A stretch of DNA of 64,000 nt from Nannobrachium achirus (lineage: Eukaryota; Chordata; Actinopteri; Myctophiformes; Myctophidae), in assembly GCA_963921795.1 (NCBI GenBank), contig OY997654.1:1922367-1986366 (forward strand), in the 5' to 3' direction. The notes beneath the pieces are model-generated. The model made no database searches. It was not told where the DNA came from and saw only the letters and a program-made list of their open reading frames with translations. Of this stretch, positions 1 to 64,000 are shown piece by piece (within the stretch, counting starts at the first letter, position 1; each line of letters begins with the position of its first letter). The translations under genes were made by a program, and so were the position numbers.

Positions 1-429
1 CTCACAACGCCTCGCACTGCGAGGCGTTGTGAGCATGTAGATCGGCTTTTACACAGGTTTCTATGGTTTCTTGGGCTGGATATGGCAGCCTGGAACGGTT
101 GTTCAAGTGCAGCTAAACTTAGCATGTTAGTAAATGTGCCACAATTACCAATAATGCATTGCACCTGTGCAGCTGACCATGCGGAACCTGGGAATATACC
201 ATTTTGTCAAGCTGGGAAGAATACAAGTCTGGAGAATATAATCATAATACCTTGTTAAAGTGACCATTTTGCATTTGTAGTTATTTTACTGTAATTCAAC
301 AACATAATAACCAGCTCAGGTAGACAAAAAGACATTCATGGATTTATATTTAAAAGTAACTTTTATTTTCCCCCCTGTACACAGGGTATGGCAGCTGCAT
401 ACCCCTGCCATACCCAATTGACACCCCTG
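1..429 (-). mobile_element. K-family hAT-like element, left end outside window
   Basis: The right edge reads CCAATTGACACCCCTG, the reverse of the K start CAGGGGCGTCAATTGGG. The body (AAACCTAGGAATATACC-type tract, CAATAATGCATTGCACC) matches the copies at 10956, 13053, 46236, 48491 and 60400. Positions 1-46 are most of a hairpin module (inner stem CAACGCCTCGC/GCGAGGCGTTG). The far end and its TSD lie outside the window. Confidence 0.75.
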
Positions 430-1068
430 CATTTTACAGTTTTCTAAGCTACAGTAAATCCTTAAGTAGCCCGTGTCAATTGTTACTGTGTGTATGTCAG
501 GGCCGGGGAATAATGTGCCATCCTGATGGTTGAGCAATGATTTTAATGTCCTAGATGCATGCAATTATCCCTTTAATTAGCAATAATGAGTTTGCGCATG
601 CTAACATAATGAGTGGAATCATGACATGCGTGCAGGCCTTAATGTGTAGCTCATTAAGATGTAACTACCTCTGTCAATAATACAATCAGCTATCATGGTA
701 AATATCCCTAACCATTGTAATGAAGGCAATCTCTAATAGTGTGGCAAGAAATCTGTCCGTCTGTCTGTCTGTCTTTCTGTGTTACATTTGCATTATTGAA
801 TTTCAAGTTGATCATAGAAAACAGATGGAATGCCCACTGCCGTAAGAAGAAAAAAAAAGATGATACCGAGATGCAAATAACAAAGTCAACATTGCAGATA
901 TTGCATTACGGAGAAAAGAAAGGGCACTACCTCTTGGGATTCAGTCATGCTATGCCTATGATCTTTTAAATCATATCAGCAACCTTTATTCCAAAGTCAA
1001 ACTTATTGTCGTGATAGTATCTTTGCCAGAGAGTTCCGCTATAACTTCCTATTGTAGCATCAGCATTA
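430..1068. other. No gene seen
   Basis: AT-rich sequence with a short (GTCT)n run near 757-775. Open frames here are short and lack splice or domain support. The last ~50 bp (about 1030-1076) is repeated at about 1649-1705 on the other side of the following transposon, a small tandem duplication of the target. Confidence 0.5.
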
Positions 1069-1076
1069 ATGTAGAG

Positions 1077-1648
1077 CAGGGGTTTTCAAAGTGGGTGACG
1101 GGGCACCCTGGGGTGCCGCGACGGCAGTTCAGGGGTGGCCGCGAGATAATGCGATAATATTTGGAATTCATTTGGACACTTGAACAAATATTGAGTGTCA
1201 TTTTAAACTTGGAAGTACAAAGTTATTTTCAGTCAGTTCTAACCAATAAATGGCTATTATCTCAACATTTTCCTCGCAACATAATCACTCAAATATCGTC
1301 GCTGTCGGGCAGAAACCTCGTATCTCCAAGTTTCAAATGTGTACGTCTTTTGGTAAAGCAAAGCCCTGCTTCATCATACAAGACCGTCGCACAAAACTAG
1401 TGAAAACAGCCGATCTACAAGCACACAACGTGTGCTTGTAGATCTGCTGTTTTCAATAGGTTAGTACATTTTATAGATGATAAATACAAAACGAACGGTT
1501 TTGGACATACTTAAGGTTTCCACCCGACAACGGCGATATGCTATAAATATAAGGTGCTGGGAGTGAAAATTATAATGTAGGGGTGCCTCGGATTAAAACA
1601 ATATATATTTATGGGGTGCTCTGAGACAAACATGTTTGGGAACCCCTG
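1077..1648 (+). mobile_element. O-family hAT-like element carrying a nested A MITE
   Basis: Ends are CAGGGGTTTTCAAAG and TTTGGGAACCCCTG. An exact 8-bp TSD, ATGTAGAG, lies at 1069-1076 and 1649-1656. An A-family MITE in reverse orientation fills 1297-1541 and carries a hairpin module at 1401-1454. Related copies are at 6209-7267 and 28340-28892. Confidence 0.85.
1297..1541 (-). mobile_element. A-family MITE nested in the O element
   Basis: It opens TCGTCGCTGTCGGGCAGAAA and closes with CACCCGACAACGGCGA, the imperfect terminal inverted repeat of the A family. The hairpin at 1401-1454 is short because the inner CGCCTCGC stem is missing. The same nesting point is seen in the copies at 6.3 kb and 28.4 kb, so the pair amplified together. 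Confidence 0.8.
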
Positions 1649-1730
1649 ATGTAGAGCACCACAACTTCCTACTGTAGCATCAGCATTAATGTAGAGCACC
1701 TTCATTCAGCATTGGAGGCACCAATGCTGG

Positions 1731-2349
1731 TAGCCGGGGACCCAGTCACCAAAATGGGAGGGGACATGTGATTTTCTGCCGTACTTTTTATTTCTGTTTT
1801 ATCTATTAGTTTGGTCAATAAGGTCCACAGAATGAGAGGCCTGCTCTGCTAGAAACATCGCGAAAAAAAGTTATGTCCATTTGTATATTCACTGTCCCAT
1901 TGACTCCTCTAGAAATATTTTAAAAAGAAAAAAGTCTGCTTTAATTAGCATGTGAGGGGTCAAACTATAGGGGTTCTTCATGATTCTGAATGCATGTCAA
2001 GCATTTGTTTTGCATGAAAAACATTCCTTGGGATAGATTTCGGCCCCCCAAAACTGTGAAAAGTGATGAGTCATCACTTATTTTCCACTTTTCACAGTTG
2101 TGGGCTGCCGAAAGTTAACCCAAGGATGTTTTTCATACAAAGGAAATGCTTGAAATGGATTCAGAATAATGAAGAACCCCTAGTTTGACCCCTCACATGT
2201 TACTTAAAGCAGATTTTTTATTATTTTTTCAAATATTTCTAGTGGATCTTAATGACCAAACTAATAGATAAAACAGAAATAAAAAGTATGGCAGAAAATC
2301 ACAGGTCCTACCCTATTCCTTGAGCTTTTGGACTTTTGGTCCCCGGCTA
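1731..2349. repeat. P-family snap-back palindrome
   Basis: Two long inverted arms run from TAGCCGGGGACC to GGTCCCCGGCTA. They meet at a centre near 2069 (GTGATGAGTCATCAC). Conserved inner arms include GAGGGGTCAAACTA and GATTCTGAAT. There is no coding potential. The inner arms match 9034-9675 and 14684-15344, but the outer arms differ. Confidence 0.8.
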
Positions 2350-2499
2350 ATGGCGAAGCTGAATATCAGCTGTTCAAATAAGACAATAGGACTCTAAGAT
2401 GCAGGAAATTGTGTGCTTACACTGCAGGTTAGTGCAGAGTAAAAATGGTAAAATACAACCAAAATATAAAACAAACTAGAAGAGAAAATTTCTAAGAAA

Positions 2500-62840: not shown

Positions 62841-63085
62841 TCGTCACTGTCGGGCAGAAATCTCGTATCTCCAAGTTTCAAATGTGTACATTTTGTTCGC
62901 AAAGCAAAAGCCCTGCTTCATCATGCAAGGCCGTCACACAAAAGTAGTGAAAACAGCAGATCTATAAGCACAGAGGCGTTGTGTGCTTGTAGATCGGCTG
63001 TTTTCACTAGTTTAAATCATTTTTAAAATGATAAATACAAAAGAAACGGTTTTGGACATATAAGGTTTCCACCCGACAACGACGA
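62841..63085 (-). mobile_element. A-family MITE in a TA microsatellite
   Basis: TCGTCACTGTCGGGCAG on the left, CACCCGACAACGACGA on the right, TATATA on both sides. Hairpin at 62946-63008 with the left inner stem deleted. Confidence 0.85.
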
Positions 63086-63099
63086 TATATACTGTATAT

Positions 63100-63151
63100 A
63101 TATATATATATATATATATATATATATATATATATATATATATATATATTA
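63100..63151. repeat. (TA)n microsatellite
   Basis: Pure TA, followed by a decayed hairpin half (CCAATATACAAGCTCAATG) at about 63160. Confidence 0.95.
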
Positions 63152-63540
63152 TATGCCTATAGCCAATATACAAGCTCAATGTGAGCATGAGGATCTACTT
63201 TAAATATGATTTTTTTAATGTGTGGAAAATTATGAATATAATAAAGACATGCCATATATATATACAGTATATCTCAAAGCAGGTCCATTACTGTGAGTGC
63301 AACAGGACTTGAGTACCTTTACCTGAGGTGGCCAACAACTGGAAGCGAGGCAGGGATGGGAGGCGTGTGATTGGCGCCTGCTATGAGCAGCTGTCTAGGA
63401 TGCCCATATTTGGGCGCAACCCAATTACATCCGCTGATCCCCCAGTCACAGGGCTGCCATGCAGTCAGAACCATTAATCTCCCTGGCTGAGTACTGTGCC
63501 ATGTGTTAACAGCCAGCTCCCCCCTCCCCCCCCTCCACAG

Positions 63541-63621
63541 CCAAAGCCTACCAGCAGGGTTGAAAGTCATGCCAATCATCTTGACTACTTTGACTCTGAT
63601 GTCCCCTTGGGCTTATTATGA
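63541..63621 (+). other. Possible 3' exon
   Basis: A C-rich tract CCTCCCCCCCCTCCACAG precedes an open segment. One frame begins PKPTSRVESHANHLDYFD and stops at TGA 63619-63621. Another frame stays open for 43 codons to about 63672. Neither product is recognised and which frame would be used is unclear. Confidence 0.15.
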
Positions 63622-63717
63622 TTACGGACAGACAGGCCACTGTTTCTGTGGACTCCGAAAAGTTACCCTCTAGAACCCAATCCTCCGCTGGCCGCTGTAG
63701 GGCTCGAGGGTCGTTTT

Positions 63718-64000
63718 CAGGGGCGTCACAAGGAGTGAGTTACTAGGGCCCAAGGTGGAGAGGCCTTAATTATTTTATACTTTAGCTATTGAACAATAGC
63801 AGATCAAGAGCTTGTAGATCTGCTATTTTTTTTTTTTTTTAAGTCGTGAAAATGTGTGCAAATCTTTGAATATATGTATTTTTAAGCAAACATTTGTAAC
63901 TTAAATTTTGTTTCTGGGGGGGTCCCTGGAACTAAATATTTTGAGATGGGAGTCCGTGGACAAATATTATTTTGGGGGTCCTTCACACGAAAAGGTTTGA
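63718..64000 (-). mobile_element. M-family element, cut by window end
   Basis: CAGGGGCGTCACAAGG at the left with ACTAGGGCCCAAGGTGGA, then CTTTAGCTATTGAACAATAG and B-core sequence to AAAAGGTTTGA. Hairpin at 63794-63831 is minimal (GATCAAGAGCTTGTAGATC). Confidence 0.82.

Follow-up and report, generated by a model that had tools for sequence, protein, structure and literature searches.

The window analysed here is a stretch of 64,000 nucleotides of Nannobrachium achirus (Myctophidae), taken at its full length from positions 1,922,367 to 1,986,366 of contig OY997654.1 (assembly GCA_963921795.1), in which one hairpin recurs within several families of DNA transposons. Matches to AGCAGATCTACAAGC with up to three mismatches number 92 in the window, against a mean of 1.80 and a maximum of 5 in 100 dinucleotide shuffles. 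A previous sequence-only reading had claimed about 50 occurrences of this module, and the claim holds: at least one arm was found at each of the 51 places that it listed, with both arms at 43, only the left at four and only the right at four. Arms were paired by script, with up to four mismatches per arm when paired and three when single. Two further single right arms, at 54155-54169 and 56549-56563, look like chance matches.

The complete unit measures 61 nucleotides, composed of a 15-nucleotide arm, 31 nucleotides of inner stem and loop, and a second 15-nucleotide arm, to which an outer stem adds some 8-12 nucleotides per side. The near-constant arm, AAAATAGCNGATCTACAAGCTCACAA, lies within a longer, well paired stem, and the whole cassette spans roughly 75-90 bp. 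DNA folding of four copies gave a single hairpin each time (-36 to -48 kcal/mol, z of -11 to -18). Among the 102 paired copies of the whole sample, 50 are exactly 61 nucleotides long, 41 are shorter, and 11 are longer. Besides the window, this sample comprises 20 stretches of 10 kb (two with long N runs), eight stretches of 3 kb at arm hits, and 46 kb from arm-rich parts of contig C1. In the assembly holding the window (1,658,514,493 bases in 564 contigs), the arm with at most one mismatch has 295,114 forward and 294,904 reverse matches, compared with 11 and 9 for a reversed-pattern control. The genome total is, thus, roughly 295,000 hairpins if the arms are paired, lone arms and tandem arrays occurring too, and 27 of 193 random 1-kb windows contain the hairpin. 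Rfam gave no match in the window at the gathering threshold, GTDB genomes gave none to the hairpin, and pattern searches of IMG/VR returned one stretch with a single arm and nothing else.

Sorting the flanks by eye assigned 17 of the 51 places to family A, 16 to B and D, four to F, two each to G, H, E, and J, and one each to I and K, leaving four unclear. Terminal inverted repeats (TIRs) and target site duplications (TSDs) were scored by script, and no strand is assigned (".") to any feature tabulated. A is a miniature inverted-repeat transposable element (MITE) with a TA-like target, and its 17 places agree with the claim that the hairpin sits within such an element. Eight of its hairpins were placed by arm pairing and flanks (4143..4203, 16740..16788, 17767..17827, 19283..19346, 26418..26478, 33002..33047, 36596..36656, and 62955..62999), and a lone left arm at 7061..7090 by the arm script and flanks; a copy at 8175..8349, delimited by the ends script, has no hairpin. 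The eight other places lie in A copies held by larger elements of hAT type, as found by arm pairing and the ends script. The hairpin at 1408..1448 is in an A nested in element C (1077..1648, TSD ATGTAGAG, 8/8), and that at 35638..35698 in an A nested in element Q (35397-35958, TSD 7/8), while a second Q (37911..38436, TSD GTGAGTAA, 8/8) holds an A with a right arm only (38162..38193, arm and ends scripts). Element P contains an A lacking its left end, with hairpins at 20707..20767 and 30328..30384 (also supported by flanks), and a J-like hAT (24731-25568, TSD 6/8) holds the A with the hairpin at 25101..25161. For two more A-holding hATs, one C-like around the hairpin at 28523..28567 and one Q-like around 39271..39323, the script found no TSD.

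B carries two hairpins, one near each end, at 18123..18183 and 18558..18593, 43472..43532 and 43870..43930, 44422..44456 and 44819..44853, 49715..49758 and 50132..50192, and 52027..52070 and 52672..52732 (arm pairing and flanks by eye). A sixth copy, starting with CCCATT, has shrunk to its two ends (56805..56971) and keeps a sole hairpin at 56850..56910 (arm pairing and ends script). It is the only one of the six with TTAA on both sides, another being scored CTAG/CTAG and one TTAT/TTAA, which leaves B as a candidate piggyBac-type MITE (TTAA target, CCC-type ends). D has the two-hairpin interior of B: one copy (11763-12426, TSD 5/8) has hairpins at 11842..11902 (arm pairing and ends script) and, with a decayed left arm, at 12278..12338 (arm pairing), and another (54277..54827, TSD CTGCTAGT, 8/8) at 54359..54419 and 54670..54730 (arm pairing and ends script). 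A further D hairpin, at 63799..63824, has mostly lost its left arm (arm pairing and flanks by eye).

The remaining hosts are less numerous. F hairpins lie at 15736..15792, with a rearranged left arm, in an element at 15575..16048 (TSD CTGTAGTA, 8/8), at 58403..58463 in an element at 58273..58714 (TSD GTCTATAG, 8/8), and at 42973..43028 in one at 42756-43160 without a convincing TSD (3/8), all three by arm pairing and the ends script, and at 53799..53860 by arm pairing and flanks. Arm pairing and the ends script likewise place the hairpin of host I at 37186..37251 (element 37036..37474, TSD CTGTACAG, 8/8) and that of host K at 9842..9869 (element 9717..10522, TSD CTCCAGAT, 8/8, with a weak TIR of 9/14). 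G hairpins were found by arm pairing at 22541..22601 and 34673..34733, and H hairpins at 24038..24098 (arm pairing and folding) and, rearranged, at 31797..31848 (arm pairing). J has a hairpin in an H-like segment at 40539..40578 (arm pairing and flanks by eye) and a left arm only at 53177..53208 (arm script and flanks by eye). E is cut by the window start, its hairpin at 1..47 being seen by its right arm (script), and recurs at 46236..46781 with ATCGTAAG duplicated on both sides (by eye) and a hairpin at 46337..46375 (arm pairing and by eye). The four strongly decayed places or places without a clear host, all found by the arm script, are single decayed arms at 23759..23790 and 28295..28340 and decayed hairpins at 33841..33884 and 63161..63199.

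Copies with verified ends in D, F, I, K, C, and Q combine a TIR with an 8-bp duplication, as in the hAT-type class. The proposal of 8-bp TSDs in hAT-like hosts is, thus, upheld for D, F, and K. The script gave no convincing TSD for two copies each of G and H, the one perfect 8-mer at a G copy sitting in a simple repeat beside a poor TIR, nor for J at 40539. Three further hosts come from outside the window: T, for which an 8/8 duplication was read by eye at one hairpin-less copy, and U and V, which are defined by their flanks in the genome sample. Hosts with verified ends have inverted repeats and the duplications of DNA transposons rather than the features of short interspersed nuclear elements (SINEs); Pol III heads were not searched for.

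Part of the sharing of the hairpin is ordinary nesting, or the takeover of one element's interior by another, and does not represent separate hosts. A sits within at least four other hAT-type families (C, Q, P, and the J-like one), and the composite of P with a truncated A has been amplified, with copies at 20578-20973 and 30198-30585 (TSD 7/8 for each). E and J carry an H-like stretch around the hairpin. The clearest exchange is the E copy at 46236-46781, in which the native palindrome has been mostly replaced by the H-like segment; native copies of E instead contain a long palindrome with a different sequence, for example the central one at window 60422-60505. In all, A and B/D, two carriers, account for 33 of the 51 places. 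The hosts that remain separate are A (TA-type), B (one of its copies flanked by TTAA), F, I, and K (all three with 8-bp duplications), and G, H, T, U, and V. The claim that one core occurs in at least ten families with unrelated ends, which was taken to mean movement between families or retention for a function, is partly borne out by these exchanges and by the flanks described next, with the reservation that several of the families named have only nested or taken-over interiors and that part of the sharing is plain nesting.

The flanks of 25 representatives were compared over 100 bp outward from beyond the core stem, and 298 of the 300 pairs stayed under the 99.9% shuffle level, a test of limited sensitivity that also missed two related A subfamily flanks sharing some 20 bp. 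The exceptions were the two ends of A itself and, marginally, G versus V. Clustering by flanks, which the sequence-only reading had proposed, was run on the genome sample and sorted 267 arms (at most one mismatch) into 91 clusters, 24 of them with at least two members; the 67 single-member clusters include some chance matches or decayed members of known families. Two hairpins, at L013:1030 and L034:1344, are orphans that belong to no recognised family. Among 34 hairpins from a hand-made list, the nearest neighbour belongs to the same host group for 27 of 31, and the mean distance is 0.05 within host groups versus 0.21 between them. Hairpins whose two flanks come from two families are rare. Given this clustering by host and the one-family flank pairs, exchange between families is a rare event, and a single acquisition of the hairpin seems likely for each family. 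A recombination hub, in which broken hairpins would often be healed from other families, predicts that two-family flanks are common, and was rejected as a frequent process. The birth of each MITE by folding back around its hairpin was also rejected, since the two halves of A and of F differ beyond their ends (by eye).

Long palindromes are not restricted to this sequence. In 258 kb, 84 palindromes have arms of at least 18 bases, and the motif is present in 46; several of the other 38 lie in repeat families, E among them, while some few are hairpin variants missed by the filter. As other elements of the genome also contain long palindromes of other sequence, central palindromes may be useful in general, and the present one may be the most successful in the sample. 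Other palindromes in the window were recorded at 5954-6056, 53534-53607, and the E site mentioned above, some of them in other repeat families, and at L023:5943-6177 there is a palindrome of 235 bp, in which 117-bp arms enclose a loop of one base.

Copies with a short gap in place of the hairpin were collected for G and F. Genome-wide, 1043 G copies have 70-100 bases between two exact flanks, some of them without the full hairpin, as some listed matches begin at an upstream copy of the left flank, and 121 have 0-30 bases. Among 100 of these 121 short copies, 71 keep a piece of an arm and 57 have the same overall length, 39 bases; 39 of these 57 consist of TGTTTGAAAATAGCC and two more bases. 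Such copies are consistent with loss of the sequence between two direct repeats of 8 bp, AAATAGCC, at the base of the stem, which either happened repeatedly or happened once in a subfamily that then spread. Short F copies number 103, and among the 100 listed there are 93 distinct gap strings, with an arm piece in 62 and with the tip removed in 12, leaving AAAATATTTT. The F copies look like the decay of a palindrome and not like a mobile hairpin entering or leaving a fixed site. Since one length class dominates in G, the description as ragged deletions is true for F and not for G. Overall, the short copies of both families look like deletions rather than pre-insertion sites, except for one ambiguous G class of four copies, which read AAAATGCCTAGG.

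The arm also recurs in tandem arrays, whose units measure 25 or 37-38 bp. Six arms occur at L007:598-735 in 25-bp units of AGCAGATCTACAAGCTGTAAGTCAC, and a minisatellite of 37-38-bp units at L016:8400-8970, which is followed by an open frame that we take, by eye, to be reverse transcriptase-like, of the kind found in long interspersed nuclear elements, contains 16 arms and begins in an F-like flank. Because of this starting point, some minisatellites probably grew from broken hairpins. A longer array at L017:3545-9360 has units of roughly 1.2-1.6 kb with a hairpin in each, whose inner sequence, CAACATGTCACA, resembles that of the piggyBac family described below. The window has other tandem repeats, namely an A-rich minisatellite at 2890-3467, with about 38 copies of a 15-bp unit, and, at 42266-42557, a 97-bp unit present three times in tandem (99% matches). 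It also includes an assembly gap of 200 N at 10640-10839 and an open frame at 14107-14631 that is presumably protocadherin cytoplasmic exon-like, with no match in Pfam; this frame and the repeats suggest the genome of a bony fish.

A search for piggyBac transposases gave 952 candidates and 116 scored matches, and the sequence preceding the domain was inspected in five cases. In L039, a full hairpin lies about 0.5 kb ahead of the transposase domain, and L042 matches L039 without a difference across 699 bases; the related L041 contains two hairpins, L043 arm pieces only, and L040 none. The idea that the hairpin is at home in an autonomous piggyBac element was rejected: the copy is badly paired, and with the hairpin in 27 of 193 random windows its presence is no evidence of a native role, so that it may be a chance passenger. 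The same search revealed a cluster of 16 transposase matches within half a megabase (G000:C2:71346413-71843994). Every one lies on the + strand and 15 lack an internal stop, so that the cluster is perhaps a transposase-derived host gene family. PiggyBac transposase domains also lie within open frames of 3951 codons at G000:C1:82177671-82178753 and of 2461 codons at C18:60345001-60346080.

Comparison of the stems indicates how the hairpin has changed. The middle of the arm is nearly constant, and the inner and outer stems differ between families yet mostly remain paired, the outer stem of B excepted. Across six MITE groups, in which U and T are single copies, the two consensus arms of A, B, F, H, U, and T differ at 1, 2, 1, 1, 1, and 2 positions of 33, respectively, which gives a mean of 1.3 within a family versus 4.05 between families (2.0 and 5.0 when the piggyBac copy is added). 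In 19 copies, both-sided changes affect 9 of 34 core stem pairs, with a covariation score above 500 of 500 shuffles, which take no account of relatedness among the copies. Over all 41 pairs, 16 have both-sided changes versus 13.1 in shuffles, and 81 cells do versus 36. Within G, 31 full-length copies among 100 listed of the 1043 average 2.3 mismatches of 15, with 8 compensated cells versus 5.7 expected under independence and 72 of 465 uncompensated. As the arms of G change independently, agreement between arms is set in source copies: resident copies decay like neutral DNA, and spreading lineages keep the stem paired. Selection on the source copies explains this pairing best, although an occasional template switch in source lineages is a second possible cause, and the changes in step between families hint that the hairpin itself may help elements to spread.

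The explanation that we tentatively put first is that the hairpin is a cassette that travels from one non-autonomous DNA transposon to another through nesting and the capture of segments, its pairing being favoured in source copies. A carrier MITE would insert into another transposon and the composite would then spread, as seen for A in C, P, and Q, or a hairpin-bearing segment would replace the centre of another element, as seen in D with the interior of B and in E and J with an H-like segment. Later copies of the family would inherit the hairpin, which would be retained if, among copies that go on to spread, a paired stem is favoured. It probably acts in cis, as a DNA cruciform or an RNA hairpin aiding propagation, while inserted single copies would decay through substitutions and deletions of the tip or the entire stem. 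As to how F, G, H, I, K, T, U, and V first acquired the hairpin, our guess is capture at a junction when an element lost its interior.

Several observations weigh against this explanation. The number of lineages underlying the arm comparison is small, and changes at CpG sites can mimic compensation by chance. The piggyBac-family hairpin is badly paired (6/33) despite the recent spread of that young family, and the dominant class of short G copies may be a subfamily that spread without a hairpin. The four G copies reading AAAATGCCTAGG may be either deletions or a true empty site. At least eight E matches are free of the hairpin, compared with the two E copies of the window that have it; the hairpin is, therefore, not needed for success, native E having its own palindrome.

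The main rival, which we consider possible but somewhat improbable, is that the hairpin has no function and hitchhiked with its carriers, occasional template switching in source lineages keeping its arms alike. Template switching is reported to create and maintain stems (PMC8794818), and the palindrome of the F-type copy L008 continues beyond the stem through 35 bp of similar flank (30 of 35 matching), a pattern to be expected from template switching or from recombination of two related copies. The possible hairpin-less G subfamily is also in keeping with a passenger. Nevertheless, the arms decay independently in the 31 G copies, and an A/C mismatch at one stem position is kept in 17 of 24 A copies (crude typing), which argues against frequent copying from arm to arm, since this would erase the mismatch. 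A stronger form of the cassette explanation, in which about ten families with different kinds of transposase took up the hairpin as a selfish structural domain because its folding raises the spread of the carrier, strikes us as rather unlikely.

It is less probable still, and in our estimate unlikely, that the hairpin is a tiny palindromic transposon (Tc1/mariner-like, with a TA target) that inserted separately into each host family. The stem does read TA-GTG...CAC-TA in A, I, and one V copy (by eye), the contexts are as many as the 91 flank clusters suggest, two hairpins are orphans, and the ambiguous G class could be an empty site. Against this, the base of the stem shows no TA or other duplication by eye in F, G, H, K, T, and U, the outer stem bases vary between families, free copies are few, and the short copies of F are diverse and, like those of G, mostly retain a piece of an arm. 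Retention of the hairpin for small-RNA production, or for the binding of a host or element protein to GATCTACAAGC, seems quite improbable: the nearly invariant arm middle, with inner and outer stems varying in step, and a stem of about the size of microRNA precursors would suit it, but Rfam gave no match in the window, and the constancy of the arm is also explicable by a recent common origin. Finally, descent of all hosts from one element, which the sequence-only reading had named as what would overturn it, would make the hairpin the best-preserved part of that element. Although the hairpin of F, I, and J sits some 0.36-0.42 of the way along the element, or at the mirror of this position (by eye), such descent is very improbable, as the 8-bp, TTAA, and TA-like targets and the ends differ in kind and nearly all flank pairs are unrelated in a test that did miss two related ones.

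The classification of transposon families relies on ends and transposases, and the interiors of MITEs are usually regarded as passive filler. A folded module common to several target types, its arms alike within a family and unlike between families, would mean that selection can reach an internal part and that unrelated transposons can pass parts to one another. In this genome, repeat finders may wrongly join or split the families concerned, and some minisatellites seem to grow from the module. Among the papers listed from the open-access literature, no description was found of a hairpin common to DNA transposons of different target types, and the arm sequence as text gave no match.

Several known systems offer partial parallels. 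Bacterial REPINs and integron attC sites resemble the present hairpin in being numerous scattered, imperfect palindromes in which part of the arm is constant and the inner stem varies; they are set apart by their role as substrates of single-strand recombination or transposition. Among fish elements, the zebrafish MITE Angel, a short inverted-repeat element (Izsvak 1999, as described in PMC12628747), folds back on one strand and is the basis of a proposed stem-loop amplification model, and is similarly a small fish element able to fold back; as described there, it is one MITE, whereas here one hairpin is common to many families with different ends. The same account presents Xstir and miDNA4 as MITEs whose internal repeats seed satellite DNA (PMC12628747), which recalls the tandem arrays of the present module with their various spacers, although in that description each such repeat is confined to one element. 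Nearest in kind are the SINE conserved domains, of which the present hairpin would, if it is a selfish structural domain, be the DNA-transposon counterpart. These domains are shared by unrelated SINEs. They resemble the hairpin as central modules in families with different ends, and one of them, the V domain, is carried by the MITE MER6, a passage into a DNA transposon (PMC6887750). They differ in being parts of SINEs, whereas the present module is a long paired hairpin found across DNA transposons of several target types, with arms that have changed in step.

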